Of a stretch of DNA of 64,000 nucleotides, positions 354 to 56,300 are shown piece by piece. Origin of the DNA: Lineus longissimus (taxonomy: Eukaryota > Nemertea > Pilidiophora > Heteronemertea > Lineidae). The notes beneath the pieces were generated by a model that was given only the letters and a program-made list of their open reading frames with translations, had not been told where the DNA came from and did no database searches. The stretch is from contig NC_088323.1 of assembly GCF_910592395.1 (NCBI RefSeq), forward strand, positions 6,696,001 through 6,760,000. Direction: 5' to 3'. The translations under genes were made by a program, and so were the position numbers. Within the stretch, counting starts at the first letter, position 1. Each line of letters opens with the position of its first letter.

Positions 354-1427
354 AGGTGCTCTGATCAAACCGTGGATATTCACCGAAATCAAGGAGAAGA
401 GAATCTGGGATATTTCCTCCTCTGAACGATTCGACATGTTGAAAGATTTCTCAAACTATGGTCTTGAGCACTGGGGCTCTGATACACAGGGTGTCGAGAC
501 TGTTAGGCGGTTTCTACTGGAGTGGCTGTCATTCCTTCACAGGTAAGTCTGGCAGCCGGTCAACCCATTCTAAATTCAGAGATCATGTGATCTTTCTCAA
601 AACAGAATCAGCTGTGGCGAAAATGTATCCATCTGTTGGAGTGGGGTAGTGGAAACATCAGCACTTGTAAAGAGTTTTTTTTGTTATAGTGTCACCCCCA
701 ATGAAAGGGCCAGCCAGATTTGGCTTATGAGACACTCTTTCCTTCCAAACTCCTATCTCTAATGCCAGGCACCTGGCGAGAAGGCAGTTTGTACCCTATA
801 TTTAACTAGCCGGCAGCTAACCAACCACCTGCATCGGAAAGAGCTACCAACGTGGCTTGAACTTATAACCTTCTGTTTATGAGGCAGATGCCTTAACCAC
901 TAAGCCATTGGGAGGATCTACCTGGAGGGTGAGGTTAAGTCTCATCTTAATCTTCTGATTTGTTAGGTACATCCCTGTTGGCGTGTTGGAGCAAGTTCCG
1001 CAGAAGATCAACCACCGTCCGCCGCGCTACCTCGGCAGGAATGACCTTGAGACGCTCATGGCCAGCGAGAACTGTGGCGATTGGGTCAAAATCAGGTGGG
1101 TTCTTATGTATACAACATGTCAACATGATGCTGGGAACTAACATGCTTTATAACAATCGAGCCCTGGGATTGACATGTCAACATGTTGACATGAAATGCT
1201 AGGAACTAACATGCTTTATAACAATCGAGCCCTGGGATTTAAAATGAAAGGACTGAGAAGCAGCTCTCAGAGAGGATAAAAACTAATTACCAAATGATTA
1301 ATCAACTCTCTATGAAATAAAAACTAGCTTGATGCATTACCATCTGCTTTTCAGTGAGATGTTGCTGGGACCGGTGCATGACGATTTCACCTTCCTGCCG
1401 AAGCACAAGGCAAACTCATATAGATAG
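354..1427 (+). CDS. DUS3L: tRNA-dihydrouridine(47) synthase DUS3L, C-terminal part
   Basis: Last three exons: 354..542, 967..1095 and 1355..1427 (TAG). Phases agree at both junctions (split Arg codon, split Ser codon), giving 129 residues. The first exon begins [14 protein letters not shown], the end of the flavin-binding TIM barrel, and runs into [13 protein letters not shown]. The second and third exons carry the helical domain ([27 protein letters not shown]) and the tail [21 protein letters not shown]. All match the C-terminus of animal DUS3L closely. The family reduces uridine 47 in the variable loop of cytosolic tRNAs to dihydrouridine, using FMN and NADPH. The catalytic core and zinc-finger N-terminus lie upstream of the window. 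Bases 1-353 are intron. Intron 1 of this part contains a reverse-oriented SINE. Confidence 0.93.
685..915 (-). repeat. tRNA-derived SINE, family 1
   Basis: The reverse complement begins with a tRNA-like head (GGCTTAGTGGTTAAGGC, an A-box match) and ends in a body containing GCCCTTTCATTGGGGGTGACA. A second copy lies in the opposite orientation at 18199..18421, with a body fragment at 18440..18530. It sits in an intron of DUS3L. This copy's B-box is degraded. Confidence 0.7.
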
Positions 1428-10220: not shown

Positions 10221-10407
10221 CATCAATTTTCTTCACAGTGTGACACCATTATTGGAGCCGGAGACTTCTACGTCCATCTAACTCAACATGATTGGTCACA
10301 TACCATTTTATGTGTATCCATTCAAGTACAGTGGAGTCCTCCTGGGGAGGTCTAGAAGTCACTTGACCAATACCTGTATCCTTGCGGTGTCTTGAATGGG
10401 GTGCAAA

Positions 10408-10966
10408 AGGTGCTGAATCGGTCTTCATGAATCGCAGCGGCTCACTAGTGCCATCAAAAGGTGCCGAATCAGTCTTCATGAATCGTAGCGGCTCACTAGT
10501 GCCATCAAAAGGTGCTGAATCGGTCTTCATGAATTCGTTACGGCTCACTAGTGCCATCAAAAGGTGCCGAATCGGTCTTCATGAATCGTAGCGGCTCACT
10601 AGTGCCATCAAAAGGTGGCGAATCGGTCTTCATGAATCGTAGCGGCTCACTAGTGCCATCAAAAGGTGGCGAATCGGTCTTCATGAATCATAGCGGCTCA
10701 CGTGTGCCATCAAAAGGTGGCGAATCGGTCTTCATGAATCGTAGGGCTCACTAGTGCCATCAAAAGGTGCCGAATCGGTCTTCATGAATCGTAGCGGCTC
10801 ACTAGTGCCATCAAAAGGTGCCGGATCGGTCTTCATGAATCGTAGCGGCTCACTAGTGCCATCAAAAGGTGGCGAATCGGTCTTCATGAATCGTAGCGGC
10901 TCACTAGTGCCATCAAAAGGTGCCGAATCGGTCTTCATGAATCGTAGCGGCTCTCGTGTGCCATAA
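10408..10966. repeat. 51-bp minisatellite, 11 copies
   Basis: Eleven head-to-tail units of about 51 bases beginning GGTGCCGAATCGGTCTTCAT and ending near CACTAGTGCCATCAAAA, with variants GGTGCT/GGTGGC and a few one-base length changes. Because 51 is a multiple of three, long frames stay open on both strands (GAESVFMNRSGSLVPSK on plus, FMKTDSAPFDGTSEPLR on minus). One-base indels in units 3 and 7 shift the frame, and no promoter, start or splice context is evident, so I treat it as non-coding. Confidence 0.9.
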
Positions 10967-11049
10967 AAAAAAACCTCTGTGTCTGCGGTCGTGTTATACC
11001 CACACAAGGGATTCAGAGACGCGTCATGATCTTCAGACATATCCACTCG

Positions 11050-47300: not shown

Positions 47301-50300
47301 TCGGAGGTGAGAACTAGTCCTCAACTATCGTATATATAGGGTAGAACCTCTCTATTAAGGACACCCTCGGGACTGACAAGCGCTTAATAGAGAGGTGTCC
47401 TGATTACAGATGTCAATTTGAATGGAAACAACCAATTAGGGACCAAAACTAATGTCCTCAATAGAGAGGTTGTCCTTAATAGAGAGGTTGTCCTTAATAG
47501 AGAGGTGTCCGCTAAGGAAGGTTCCACTCTACTGTAAACTGTGAAATTTCTGCGAGAGTTTCATTTTCACAAATGCACAGTCGAACGCGAACTTAAAAAG
47601 CAAAAAGTTTCAACTCTAATATGATAACAATCATTTAGATTTGACGACAAACAGGATATTTTAAATCTAATGCCAAGAGAAGAAGTGCAAATTGGTCAAA
47701 TTTTAGCGTCGCCAAAATTTAAGGTCTACAGTAAGTAAGATATTTCTCAATAAAATAAAATGGGTACAGATCTGGCCGATGTCTCTGATAAACCTAGCCA
47801 TCGTCTCATGTTCCTTTTTCCCTTTCTCGGCCCCGACGCAGTGCGACATCGGGTTGTTCATTTCATTTCATTTTACCATTCCTTACCTTTCTACTTTTCA
47901 GAGTGGTGAGTTCCGTGCCAACCGGCCGCATCTGACAATCATAGAGCCACACTTCAACGACTACACGGACGTCTCCAATGACGCGTTGTCCATCCGTGGA
48001 TTTGAACTCTATAAATGTAACGACTATCACCTGGAGTCGCTGATCGAGGAGAATTTGTACTATATTGTCAGCCCCAAAGATGTGGTGGTGGCCAAGCTCA
48101 GGGACATCGATGATCATATTCAATATCTATTGGAACACTTTCTATTTGAGGTGCGTGGACATTAATTGCATGAAGTCCATGAGACTGATATCTGGCTCGA
48201 AGAGGGGGGATTTGGGCCACGTAGATCAGGGGTTTGGTCTTTTCAGTTCCTACCTTGCCCTGAAGATGGCGATGGCGTAGTTGTTTCATGAATCCGTCAG
48301 ACTCCGATAACCAGCTCAGAGAGGGGGATTTGGGCCGTAGATGAGTGGTTTGGTCTTTTCAGTTCCTTCCTTGCCCTGAAGATGGCGATGGCGTAATTCT
48401 TTCATGAAGTCCATGAGACTCCGATAACCAGCTCAAAGAGGGGGGATTTGGGCCACGTAGATCTACATTGGTCGGCGCTGAAGGTGTTAATGACCACACG
48501 GATGTCTCCAATGATGCGTTGTCCATTTGCGGATTTGAACTCTATTAACGTAACCATTTTACGTAGGCTTATCTTCTTTCACTCTTTGCAGGAGGCCATG
48601 CTGGCAGCCAATGAACACAGCAAGGAACTCAAGCGGCACGACCCCCAGGAGATCGGACGACAATACCTCAATCACCTAATCGAAAACGTCAAATTCGACG
48701 ATGCAGCGCGACTCTGCATCAAAGTTTTGGGGAAGAACAAACAGTTTTGGGAGGAGGAGGTGTACAAGTTTGCCAGGATTCAGCAGTTGAAGGCCATCGC
48801 TCCCTATCTACCCAAGGGAGACCCGAAGCTGGAGCCTGCGGTCTACGAGATGGTGCTTAACGAGTTCTTGCAGATAAATGAAGAAGTAGGTGACAATGAC
48901 CGGTACTGTTATTTTCGCGGCTTTAACGAATAACCTCAATTCACAAAAAATAAAAATTGTTGAGAAAAAAAATTTCAGAAAAAAAAATTGTTGAGAAAAA
49001 CTCAAAGAAATTTCATAACCTACAAAAATAGAAGAAGGCAGTGAAACTCTTGCTGGATGACTTGGACAAAGTGCCGATGAGTATAGTTCTCTGCGGTTTC
49101 ACTCATATACTGTAAACATGTAAAGCGCTTTGAGATGTTGTACAATTTTAAAGCGCTATTACAAGCACTTACTTCTCTTTTATGCAGTGAAACTTCCCTA
49201 TTGGCCATGAACGACACCCGTGTGACTGACAGAAATTTGGTCAGTTATGATTTTACTTGATGGTATCTCACCAGTAAACTGTTCTTAATTAAAAAAATAT
49301 GAAATGCGATCTTCTGACTCAAGTTATTGTTACTGTTCTATTTATATATATATATGTTTATTTATGTCTATTTTCAGGGCTTTAAGAAGTATATTCACGA
49401 GTGGCCTTGTGATTTATACAACATCCAGACCTTGGTGCGTGCCGTCAAAGATAAACTTAGCAGGAGTCTAAACCAAAACACGTTACTAGTTTGTCTCGCT
49501 CAGCTGTAAGTCTGACACCAATATTTGTGTTTTAAAACGTTTTTATTTGCCGAACGAAATTTACATAGCAGAGAGTTTCAATTCAACTTCTCTTCACCTC
49601 AACGTATTAATCCGAGTCTATTCTCTCATGAAATAGATCATAAACAAAGCTAAACAAATTTGAACTTTTCTTCAGCTATGCAAACGGCACGAGATTTTGA
49701 CCAAGCAATCACCATTTACCTCAAACTCAAGCATGACATCATAATTGACAAAGATAAGAAGTTCTGCGCAAACAGGCAATTATCTGCGATAAAAGTCGCC
49801 ACTATGCGCTGCTAAAGGAGGCAAAACCTGTTATTACTAGATTTGATATTGACTCGCAGACTGCTGCATCTTGCGACAACCATAAAAACCAGTGATTATT
49901 GTCGCAAGCGATTTAAATCGCAGATTCCAGCGATCTAAATTGCATCTGTTGGGCACTTTAGCTGCTGGGCCTGGTTGTTCAACACAAATCTTGTCATTAG
50001 CGGAAGCGTTAGCTCAGCATAGCGTTAGCTTAGCATAGCGTTATCTCCTGCAGTTAACCAATTAGACGTAACATCAGCGTTCGTTGCAGAACTTGTTTTG
50101 AATAACTTGGCTCTGGTGCTTGAAGTCGAATACTGAAATCTTGATTTTCTCTTCTGCAGATACACGTACGACACCAGGTTCGACCAAGCCCTCGCTATTT
50201 ACCTCCAGCTCAAGCACGATAACGTGTTCGACCTGATCCACCGCCATAACCTGTTCTATTCGATCAGCGATAAGATCGTCATGTTGATGGGTCACGATGA

Positions 50301-53300
50301 GAAGAAAGCGGTCAAACTCTTGCTCGATAATATGGATAAAGTGCCGGTGAGTGTAGCTCTCAGCAGCTTCATTCGTCCAGTGGACCCTCTCTCGGATCGG
50401 TTGATAACCTATATGGGACCCATCACAGCAAAACCTACCCTAAGTTGTATTCAACAGAGGCCCATAAGTCAGAAATTTTTTTGCTGAGAATAGACCATTA
50501 CTACAGATAAGGTAGACTGATGTCAGGAAAGATGTAAAATTCTACTGAAATTGTAAATTTTGAATGTTTTTTTCCAGATGGAGAAGGTCGTGAAACAGTT
50601 GGAAAATCATAAGAGACTTCTACACGTGGTAAGTAATAGCATGCAATACAATGTAACCAGTCCAAAGCAGAATACAATACAATGTTATGTGTAATGATAG
50701 AATACAGTACAACACAACAATACACAATGCAACGCAGCACAACAATACACAATGCAACACAACACAACAATACATAATGCAACACAACACAACAATACAT
50801 AATGCAACACAACACAACAATACATAATGCAACACAACACAATACAACGTGATCTTGTTTCTGCCCTGTGCATCAGATAATTCAGTTTTCAGCAGATGTT
50901 CGGGACACATTGATTCCTAAAAAAGTGGAAGCACCAAGCAAGTTTCTTATGGTACCCACATAACTTGTTAGACTGTCATCACCTAGTCTTCACTAAATGT
51001 CACCGACTCTGTACGTGGAACTTGGGTACTACTGATAGACTGTCAGTGTTCTCCAAAACAATTTTTTGGGTCGGGTGCCGCAGCCATATTTTAACACAAT
51101 TGAGAATTCACTTCAGTTCTGCCTGGGTTGGCAGCAAAATCTGTCCGGGTGCTCTAAAAGTAAAACCATTACCAACTCTACAAATATGTCGGGGTGCTAA
51201 CATTTTTTTCTGGGTGCTAGGGTGGGAAAAATTCATCTGTCTGGGTGCTGCGCTTGGACAAAAAGCATAGTGGAGAAACCTGACTGTCATCGCCCGGTGG
51301 TGTTGCGCAAAAACTTGTGACATGGGGATAAAATGCCCAGTTTCATTTTAAACATCGTAATCAGGTTACCTAATGACCAGCTGAGAACTATTCTGGTACC
51401 TCAAAGAAAACACCTACTAAAAGCCAAGGAGTTATTGAAGTTTCCCAGTTTGAATAATCAGACATCTTCCGTGCTGATGTCGTATATACTGTACACCGAA
51501 CTTGGGTCCCGCTGGTCATCACCACCACCCGCGATATCCCCTTGAGAATCTCGCTGGTACAGAGCTCGCACAAATCTCGCCATGATCTTTGCTACCTTGG
51601 CACACTTTGGAACGTCAATCTTTATTCCACTGAGAGCGCTCACGTTCGGTAGGAAGAAGAGAGGAATGAAGTTCTTGGACAAACCCAGCACAAGGTCATC
51701 GTAAACTTTGCAAACCATTTCTTCCAGAGACAGGTCATCATGTTGGCGGAAATACGCCACGTTTTTGAAGAAGCACATTTTCAGCTGGTAGCTTGTGACG
51801 TATTTGCCAACGGTTCTGGGCAATGAGTCCTCGTCTGTGATCATGATGCGACACACGTCTGGATTTCTCAGACACTTTGCGGTGATATACACATCCTTGA
51901 CTCTCTGTTCTAGTCTCTGCATGTGTTCGGTCTCCAGATGTGGGAAGGAGATTTTCCACAGAGTATGCAGCTCCTCATCTGTGCACTTTTTGGCCAATTC
52001 ACTTTTGGCGTGTGGAGGCTTTGGCACCAATACGTACCCACGGCTTCGTAGTTCTTGTTCATCCATCAGCCATGTCCTGGTGGTGGCACCCTCTGGCCAG
52101 TTGTCGATGAGTAGGCCCGGCACAATATCGACTGGTATAGTAAATACGGACTCGCCATCATTCCATATTAATGTGAATAATGAGCATGCTTTCCTATCAG
52201 TATCTTTGATCCCCGGCGCACCTTGCGTTGCGACTGATACTTTTTCACCAGACGCGGCGTTTTGCGAGTGAAGGAAAACACCCATCATTATTTCTTCAAT
52301 GAACTGAGTGTGAAAACCAGCACTTCCACGTGCCACCTTGGGAAGCATATACTGTTCAGCTTCACCTCTGTTTTTGTGGACCTGATGCAACCTCATGAAG
52401 CCGTCCATTACGTAATCATACTTGACATAGCCATTTCCCAAGTCTATGATTTTCCTCTCTTCGTTATTGGCCAGCGGCACTCCAAAAAGGAAATCCATTT
52501 CGTTAGGTAATCCAACTCTAGTGCCTTCAGCACTGCTGCCAATATTTCTCAAATTTCTCCCAGGAATTGTCTGACACTGCTGTGTGATGGATTCTAGAAG
52601 TCTCTTGACCCTCGCTGATACTTCTGCTGCACTTGGGCTGGGTATGAAGCGGACAGCACCTATGCCTGGCGTTTGAAGTGAAGTGGTCATGTCTTGACAC
52701 CCCAATGTTGATACAAAGCCAGCCGCAACCTGTTTTGTAATACTTGCCGCCTTTGCAGTCTCCTGGAGAACGTGGTAGTCTGCTGTTTTGACCAGTGGAA
52801 GGTATTCCAAGGGCGTGTTTCCATGACAATCTTCTTTGCTGACATCACTGCCTTTAATGATCAGGAGCCGCGCCTGGTCAATGTGGCCATGTCTACATGC
52901 CTCGTGAAGAGGAGATGACCCAATCGTGTCATTGTAAGCGCCCATGTTCTGACTCCTCAACAGTAAAGCGCAGACCGCTTTGCCTTGCTTCAAGGCGACA
53001 TCAAGGGGAGTCGCGCATACATTCTGTAGACAGTTCAGATCAGCCCCATATTTCAGCAGAGTCTCAGTTATATCTGCATTATCGCGAAATATGCTCATAT
53101 GAATTGGCGTGAATAACTGATGTTCGGTCTGGTCAGGTGGGAATTTTTCATGTTCAATCTCGTCGGGATGTCTACTGCTACTATCTCCGAGCGTGCATAT
53201 CATAGCTAGTTGTGAACTCCCAACGGCATCGTGCAGTGCACTAGTGTTAGAATTTACTTTGGCATTGATGTCTGCACCACATTTGAGAAGACACTTTACG

Positions 53301-56300
53301 GCTTCCTTGTGGCCTGTGGTTATTGCAAAGTGCAGGATTGTAACTGTATGTTTCACAGATTCTCTACGCGCACCAGAGTTGATGAGGACATTTACCACAT
53401 CAGCATATCCAAGTCCAACTGCATCATGGAGTGGGCTCACTTTCATTGTCATCCTGCTGTTAACATCCAGACCATTTTCTGCAAAGTATCTGATCATATC
53501 TGTTATGGGCCTATCTTTCCTAAGAATCTCTAAGACTTGGAAAACTGGACTCTCTCCTTTGTTCTTTGTTGCATTCATGTCAGCTTTGAGTTCTCCCAGA
53601 ATTCGAACCATGTCAGATTTTCTATGTCTCACCGCATCATGCAGAGGTCTAACACCACTAATGTAGCATTGATTGAGGTCAAGTCCTGCCTCAACCAGCA
53701 GTTTTATCATAGCGACATAGTCTGTTGCCTTCTCAGAGTCCACGTGTTCTATTATAGAATGAATTACAGTTACCCCCTCGGCTCTTTTAGAATTCAGGTC
53801 TCCTCCGACATCAGCTAAAACTCGCAGCATCTCTCCATTGCCCAGTTTTATTGCCTCGTGAACTGCATAATGCGCATCGTCATATTTGCCATTGACGTCT
53901 GCTCCATATCTTAGAAGCAATTTCATGACATTGGGGTCTTTGTCATGCGCGCAGTAGAGCGCAGTGATATTTTCAATTTGCGGTATGAGATGGACGAGCC
54001 TGGGTTCCAGTTTGGCTAGTGCCTTCACCATGTCAGTGTCTCCCAGCCTCATTGCGGTGACAAGCGTTGATATCCCTAGATCGTACCTGGCATTCACATC
54101 TGCGCCATGTTGCAATAAGCAATCCATCATTCCATGAACATTACTCATTACTGCTATACCCAGGGGTGTGAGTCTTCTAAACCCTGGAGAAAGTGCCTCT
54201 GCGCACGCGCTATGCCTGAACAAGAGTTTGAGAACATCTACACTCCGAAGTTTGACTATTTCATTTACAAGGGAGCTGTAACAAATGTTTGCATTAACGT
54301 CTGCTCCAAGTTGTGCCAAGGTTTTCACTAATTCAGAGTTTCTGTGGGTAACTGCATATATAACTGGTGTTTTGTTGTCTAATCTCAGGATGGTGACATC
54401 TGCATCATGTTTAAGAAGCTTCTCGACGATATCCATCCTGCCTAACTCCACAGCTTGAAGCAATGGTCCTTGTTCGGTGAATCCTGAATTGACATCGGCC
54501 CCTAATTCAACCAAACGTTTCATCAGTGCAGTCTGTGTCCTATCAAGAGCAAAGTTCAGCGCTGTACAGTTTATCCTTCTGATGGCATTCACGTCAACTC
54601 CTAAACTGAGCAATGTTTTTATCCCACGAATGTTATTCAGCTGAATAGCTCTATGTATTGAAGTGACATTCTGGTCAAAACGTGCATTTATATCAGCACC
54701 AAGTCCAACCAAAAACTCCACTGCCTGTGCTTTCCTTCTACTTATTCCCGTTTCTATAACCATTAGAAGTTGTTCGTCAGTTTGTATCACCGTACTAGGT
54801 CCAAAAGTTTCCGACATCCGATGCCTTAGCTCATTCCTCTTTGAAAACACCTCGTCAGCTGTGCTCCGACCTGCATCCCCTAACAGAGGATAGTGCAATG
54901 GTGTCTTCCTCTCCATGTCCCGGGCATTTATATCCGCCCCTAAATCAACCAGAGTCCAAATAACGCCCTTGATTACGTGAGTGTTGTGAGCCCCCACAAA
55001 CTGTTCAGCTGCATGGTGAAGTACAGTCCTCTTCTTACTGTCTCTACAATTAATGTCTATACCTTCATGTACCAGTTGTCGCAGTCTAGCACAATCACGC
55101 GCCTCCACTGCCCGATACAAGTCACTAAACTTTGCCATTGTCCTGAATTGACAAATGGATACTCACCGCAGATCAAGTCTATTATCCTTGAAAACACACA
55201 AATGTTTGTCACCCAACATATGTCCAAGTCCTCACTATTCAAAAAATGTTTCGATTGATTCCTACGAGTTTATTCAGCAACTAAATCCGTGGATGAAATC
55301 GTGACATTATAACCGTCATGGGATGTGCTCTCTTACCGAGAAATGATTATGTTCTGTTGGCAAATTATAGTTGTGAATAGGAAGTGGCCCATCCCTGATG
55401 ACCTGACCTTATTTCCTGACCCCGGCCTACACTAGCAAACACGACGAATCGATTGCTCGCAAACATGAGCAAACTTCGTGTTTGGCCTAGTTTGCCGAAG
55501 CATGTTTGCTCTTGTTTGCCAGTGGACTTTTTGGGTCCGAGGTTCTCAACTTTTGAAGGAGACAGTGATACGCCCCGTGCCTTTCCCTTAGGAGGATCCA
55601 TGCCCTGGTCTTGATATCTTAATGCCCTATTCAAGAAGGACCCTGACATTGGCCAAGAGTACCACGGCCTCAAGTAGCTCTCTACGTTGATTATAACGCC
55701 ATCTCTTGTCATGTTTCCAGTATCTTGATGCCCTTTTCAAGAAGAACCCTGACATCGGCCAAGAGTACCACGGCCTTCAAGTAGCTCTCTACGCTGATTA
55801 TAACACCACCTCTTGTCATGTTTCCAGTATCTTGATGCCCTATTCAAGAAGGACCCTGACATCGGCCAGGAGTACCAAGGTCTTCAATTAGCTCTCTACG
55901 CTGATTATAACACCACCTCTTGTCATGTTTCCAGTATCTTGATGCCCTTTTCAAGAAGGACCCTGACATCGGCCAGGAGTACCACGGCCTTCAAGTCGCT
56001 CTCTACGCTGATCATGACCCTGCCAATCTGATCAAGTTCCTTCGGAGTAGCAACTACTACCCGCTCCAACATGCCATGGAGGAATGTCAGAAGAGGAGAC
56101 TCACAAAGGAAATGGTCTATTTATTGGGTAAGAATCACCAACATTACTAACATCAAGAATGAATAAATAGCAATCTGTGTTTATTCTTGCTAATACTGGA
56201 TCTGAAGAAGAAAATGTACTTCTGGATGTGTACTGTGCTAGATTTACGGAATTAACCCCCCCCCCCCCACTGGCAGGTTTCTGTCCTAAAATCGAGATCA

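Follow-up and report, generated by a model that had tools for sequence, protein, structure and literature searches.

What does an animal gene do when it places a long array of ankyrin repeats in front of a cGAS-type enzyme fold, carries no intron in its coding frame, and lies antisense inside VPS41? This question is raised by a locus of the nemertean Lineus longissimus, within a stretch of 64,000 nucleotides (contig NC_088323.1, positions 6,696,001 to 6,760,000, forward strand; hereafter the window, in whose coordinates positions are given), where an initial annotation made from the letters alone had described an intact ankyrin-repeat gene of the cGAS-like receptor (cGLR) type. Our follow-up leads us to favor, with moderate confidence, the reading that the encoded protein is an ankyrin-gated cyclic-nucleotide receptor working like an animal cGLR. 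Sequence comparison further places the gene in a family of roughly 70 intronless loci, which appears as a single group when set among the genome's Mab-21 genes and some members of which have multiplied locally. The parts of the gene that bear on these conclusions are the following.

51458-55138, minus strand: ankyrin-repeat cGAS-like gene, 1226 codons, a single open frame
52739-55138, minus strand: ankyrin-repeat array, residues 1-800 (Pfam and a rough family hidden Markov model, HMM)
51461-52741, minus strand: cGAS/Mab-21-type catalytic region, residues 800-1226 (Pfam at 871-1073, phmmer against PDB, family profile)
52535-52540, minus strand: GS activation-loop motif, G867-S868 (20 of the 21 aligned members have GS, and L038 has GG)
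52493-52501, minus strand: E880-M-D882, with catalytic acids one and two (neither varies among the 21 aligned members; both align with acids of cGAS and cGLR1)
52127-52129, minus strand: D1004 (PVDIVP), third catalytic acid (the same in all 21 members and aligned with the corresponding acid in cGAS and cGLR1)
51788-51793, minus strand: S1116-Y1117, opposite the SY pair of cGAS (all 21 members have S, and 20 have Y, which is F in L051)

The frame runs for 1226 amino acids from its ATG with zero internal stops and is intronless over its full length, while the five alternative frames through this DNA stay open for at most 181 codons. At the start codon, the N-termini of two relatives (L047 and L048) are homologous to that of the window protein. 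The intact frame of the initial annotation is thus confirmed, and GS 867-868, E880, D882, and D1004 all stand at the residues it had named. Pfam reported Ank_2 (E = 1.6e-69) and Mab-21 (PF03281; residues 871-1073, E = 1.8e-5, bit score 25.3, cut-off 24.1) on the window protein, which therefore carries the domain that, together with clade membership, delimits the cGLR superfamily in PMC10732462, a paper whose main text does not contain the word "ankyrin". A rough HMM, built from five repeats of four relatives, found 17 repeat-like ankyrin stretches in the window protein, 14 of them scoring positive, so that the "about 20" repeats first proposed are plausible but their exact count is not fixed. 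No DNA-level tandem repeat was found when one was looked for in the window gene. Matches of NCBIfam models for bacterial ankyrin effectors lay far below their cut-offs and were set aside as ankyrin similarity; among possible viral relatives, one stretch fitted a pattern and none was confirmed.

The catalytic site was evaluated in an alignment of 21 rows, comprising the window protein and 20 relatives (17 genes, two of them cut by a locus edge, and three domain pieces), from which L022, broken by one stop, was excluded. E880, D882, D1004, G867, and S1116 are invariant across all 21 members, S868 is replaced by glycine once (L038), and Y1117 by phenylalanine once (L051); the tyrosine of the cGAS SY pair has a base-stacking role. 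When the window protein was searched against PDB with phmmer, the best match was cGLR1 (8gjw, E = 5e-5), to whose acid D1004 aligns. With an E-value limit of 0.001, a family profile (A1), built from 16 of the aligned sequences, matched 42 sequences in PDB (best 6.2e-13); 40 bear the names cGAS, cGLR1, or Mab-21/MB21D2, while the remaining two, 4jlx and 4kb6, are labeled "Uncharacterized protein" and are taken to be pig cGAS. Most of these alignments span profile positions ~33-362, i.e., nearly the whole cGAS catalytic domain, and in the printed alignments the three acids of the family profile fall on those of cGAS and cGLR1. As a separate observation, the two cysteines of the motif KCLRNPDVC (residues 1096 and 1089; ~51853-51874, bases approximate) are also invariant in 21 of 21 members.

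The initial annotation had proposed an HMM search for Mab-21 plus ankyrin repeats and genome-wide counts of paralogs and of STING homologs. In the genome (391,118,348 bases, 30 contigs), a PF03281 search yielded 25 matches, 16 in the ankyrin family and 9 outside it, with the window gene absent from the list. With the window catalytic region as query, 86 matches resolved into 74 loci on 16 contigs, including the window gene and a few fragments, and these locus counts are lower bounds because the best candidates alone were scored. No stop interrupts the match in 69 of the loci, 67 of which have frames of at least 600 amino acids (at least 1000 in 48 and at least 2000 in 11), and 41 of the 74 have another locus within 200 kb. 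A second query, the distant member L038, recovered 73 of the 74 loci and no extra one, the missing locus being a fragment on contig C14. Ankyrin repeats and Mab-21 occur in one frame in the window gene and in 17 of 18 scanned relatives (Mab-21 below its cut-off in L048), the 18th (L022) being a fragment behind a stop; for the other 52 loci, frame length suggests that ankyrin repeats are present, and L049-L051 carry the family label by similarity alone. In a tree of 18 family rows and 8 other Mab-21 genes, all from this genome and without named cGLRs of other animals (the near-copies L044, L042, and L024, the broken L022, and L037, a partial core, being omitted from the count), the family rows lie on one side of a branch with support 99/99, although long branches occur in the tree, and joins between them may, by the tool's own warning, be false. 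Within it, the window gene groups with L047, L035, L040, and L048 at 92/89, below the tool's star.

How these genes spread bears on whether they belong to the host at all. The window copy is old: its nearest relatives are 51% and 50% identical to it in the catalytic region, and its end branch measures 0.72 and 0.56 in two trees. Marks of a retrocopy were looked for around it: the longest repeat shared by its flanks is 11 bases, equal to the maximum in 40 shuffles, and in the 600 bases downstream runs of A or T do not exceed 7, although age could have erased both an A-tract and a target-site duplication. Recent retroposition of the window gene, considered as a candidate origin, is not supported, given its end branch, its 50-51% identity, and the absence of a poly-A tract or of a flank repeat beyond the shuffles. 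Of the retroposition or recent lineage expansion first suggested for this gene, neither part finds support for the window copy, but recent duplication is indeed seen in other members. Three copies on chromosome 17 (chr17) have non-coding flanks in common on both sides (~94-98% identity), as in segmental duplication, with main coding blocks at ~94%, so that the young genes may be diverging at the pace of their flanks or even more quickly. These patterns also count against the notion that the frames are cargo of a transposon or virus-like element. The number and dispersal of long intronless frames (74 loci on 16 contigs) is what such cargo would leave, but the window flanks match none of 17 relative loci outside the coding region, the window copy shows neither A-tract nor flank repeat beyond shuffles, and the shared chr17 flanks fit segmental duplication; we consider mobile-element cargo very improbable, no transposase or capsid genes having been searched for.

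Next, we evaluated constraint and variation along the gene. Among ten pairs computed, all six distant ones showed the fewest differences at codon position 2 and the most at position 3, and the ratio of non-synonymous to synonymous substitution rates (dN/dS) was 0.13-0.24 in the five distant pairs for which it was computable, values that are rough because synonymous sites are near saturation. Old members are thus under coding constraint. The ankyrin region changes faster than the enzyme: in three pairs involving the window gene, identity was 31.6-35.2% in the ankyrin region versus 47.5-49.0% in the catalytic region, and among five young chr17 copies dN was higher in the ankyrin part than in the catalytic part for all 10 pairs, which are not independent, with dN/dS of 0.75-2.56 for the ankyrin part and 0.29-1.45 for the catalytic part. 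Array length also varies, since young copies differ by whole units of 201 bp (67 codons, two repeats), a unit found inside the coding ankyrin part in 15.3 copies in L041 (3478-6543) and 6.2 copies in L044 (3596-4849).

This variation is relevant to a second explanation, namely that the protein is a nucleic-acid sensor like other cGLRs, in which the ankyrin array would serve just for localization or for binding a downstream adaptor. The window protein shares its fold family with cGLRs, many of which, according to Li et al. 2023 (PMC9980059), respond to double-stranded DNA or RNA through the back face of the enzyme. A fast-changing, length-variable array would, however, be unexpected for a mere anchor, and the zinc-ribbon pattern H-x(3-8)-CC-x(4-9)-C was found in 0 of 21 family members while a control stretch of cGAS was positive, as the initial annotation had noted in calling the ribbon missing, although insect cGLRs are likewise not known to carry one. 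The net charge of residues 800-1195 is only +2, an observation of little weight. We regard a pure nucleic-acid sensor as quite unlikely.

On the side of the signaling pathway, one exon of a STING ligand-binding domain was detected in the genome (C11:2036599-2036703; 27.4 bits against a cut-off of 27, and 30.2 bits in a second search). Its 30 residues gave 75 PDB matches at E up to 1 (best 1.9e-4), and the 60 listed among them are all named STING, TMEM173, or fusions thereof. The exon lies ~87 kb from C11:2123659, the closest relative of the window gene, a proximity that may be chance.

On the reading that the window protein is an ankyrin-gated receptor, its N-terminal ankyrin array would recognize, or be restrained by, a protein ligand and would thereby gate the C-terminal nucleotidyltransferase, which would make a cyclic nucleotide that STING could read. 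Members of the family are probably immune sensors. More tentatively, and on balance improbably, the genes might together form an expanded, shifting repertoire of receptors for proteins, comparable to NLR or plant resistance genes, whose variable arrays would detect pathogen or altered host proteins and whose output would be a cyclic nucleotide.

Several observations weigh against an active receptor of this kind, in addition to the long branches of the tree. The cGLR criteria given by Li et al. (PMC9980059) include h[QT]GS, [DE]h[DE]h, and a third acid after a spacer of 50-90 residues, of which the window protein shows the second (E880-M-D882-F883, with E and D in 21 of 21 members). At the first it reads NIGS, with isoleucine at residue 866, and D1004 follows a spacer of 119 residues (121 if counted from acid to acid). 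Of the 21 family members, one has [QT]GS and three have a spacer within 50-90, whereas the looser G[S/G], which is all that the Methods text of the same paper requires in the activation loop, is present in all 21. Because the literal motif is absent, we call the window protein Mab-21/cGAS-type and probably cGLR-like, not a cGLR in the strict sense of that definition; of the initial annotation's use of the catalytic triad as a cGLR mark, the kept acids stand, without a literal match to the motif and spacing as published. Pfam gave no report of Mab-21_C on the window protein, although this domain was reported in 16 of 18 scanned relatives (one under its cut-off), and a single-sequence structure model of the window protein was unusable (mean predicted local distance difference test score of 34). 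For STING there is a single exon, whose score barely passes the cut-off. The more rapid change of the array could reflect relaxed constraint, and the recent copies are not clearly constrained because the ranking of codon positions does not hold consistently across four pairs of young chr17 copies and their catalytic dN/dS extends across the range given above.

In a third explanation, the cGAS-type fold is a binding module of a pseudoenzyme or scaffold, the ankyrin array does the work, and no nucleotide is made. It has a possible precedent in Mab21L1 and Mab21L2, which in the account of Li et al. (PMC9980059) have complete putative active sites and no known synthesis, so that kept acids are not proof of activity, and it fits the rarity of the literal motif and spacing in the family. 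Yet the two acids of the first motif, the third acid, and G[S/G] are each retained in 21 of 21 members, which would be hard to explain without catalysis, and the solved cGLR1 chain (8gjw) likewise lacks Q or T before GS. We therefore consider a pseudoenzyme unlikely, if still worth weighing, and retain the ankyrin-gated receptor as the preferred reading.

The genomic position of the gene is defined by two exons of VPS41 on the opposite strand.

~50149-50361, plus strand: VPS41 exon preceding the intron that holds the gene, TPR_Vps41 positions 119-189 (profile match)
~55929-56147, plus strand: VPS41 exon following that intron, TPR_Vps41 positions 200-272 (profile match)

Since these successive exons flank it, the window gene lies antisense inside one VPS41 intron, and the intronless, nested antisense arrangement described at the outset is borne out by the frame and by both exons. 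A nested Mab21-Lrba/Nbea gene pair is named in the title of a work cited by PMC10732462. Near the second exon, a 107-bp unit repeated 3.7 times (55615-56012, plus strand) spans the apparent 3' splice site and the start of the VPS41 exon; the exon piece at this repeat matches Pfam in all three frames, two under the cut-off, which would fit either competition among several acceptors or inert additional copies. Just upstream of the start codon of the window gene, an acceptor-like CAG and a donor-like GTGAGT occur at 55139-55175 (minus strand), and a 5' untranslated exon is possible. Elsewhere in the window are a 51-bp unit repeated 11.1 times with 94% match (10404-10969) and a tRNA-like match at 843-914 (minus strand) that is barely over its gathering score (29.1 versus 29).

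The architecture itself is not new. The initial annotation knew of no functional description of it; ankyrin-fused cGLRs are in print, ankyrin repeats being among the architectures of the 13% of cGLRs with added domains in Li et al. 2023 (PMC9980059; Stylophora examples), but the passages of that paper on ankyrin cGLRs report no activity for this form. The same paper describes cGLR expansions in cnidarians and bivalves, with >200 genes in some bivalves, and its main text has no word beginning Nemertea, Lineus, or Notospermus, no search having been aimed at nemertean cGLR papers. Li et al. curated their cGLRs by hand; read literally, the published motif would miss most members of the present family (18 of 21 by spacer, 20 of 21 by [QT]GS), which suggests that cGLR counts may be low. 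If the preferred reading is true, this would be an animal lineage with a large receptor repertoire built on cyclic-nucleotide signaling, in which protein-binding arrays precede the enzyme.

Compared with vertebrate cGAS, the window family aligns in the GS loop, the three acids, and the SY pair, with most of the catalytic domain covered, and differs in having no zinc ribbon, an ankyrin array in front, and, in the window protein, a spacer of 119. cGLR1 (8gjw) is the best single-sequence PDB match and also has no Q or T before GS, whereas its solved chain has 355 residues. With Mab21L proteins the family shares the Mab-21 domain, but L001, the best PF03281 match in the genome and Mab21L-like in our judgement, has neither GS at that place nor ankyrin repeats. 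The closest counterparts are the ankyrin-fused cGLRs presented by Li et al., which likewise join a Mab-21/cGAS core to ankyrin repeats on one chain, while Lineus has 74 loci, ankyrin repeats in 17 of 18 scanned relatives, and a longer spacer. The kind is thus already known, and what the Lineus family adds to it is its scale in one genome, its longer catalytic spacing, and young copies with arrays of 201-bp units.

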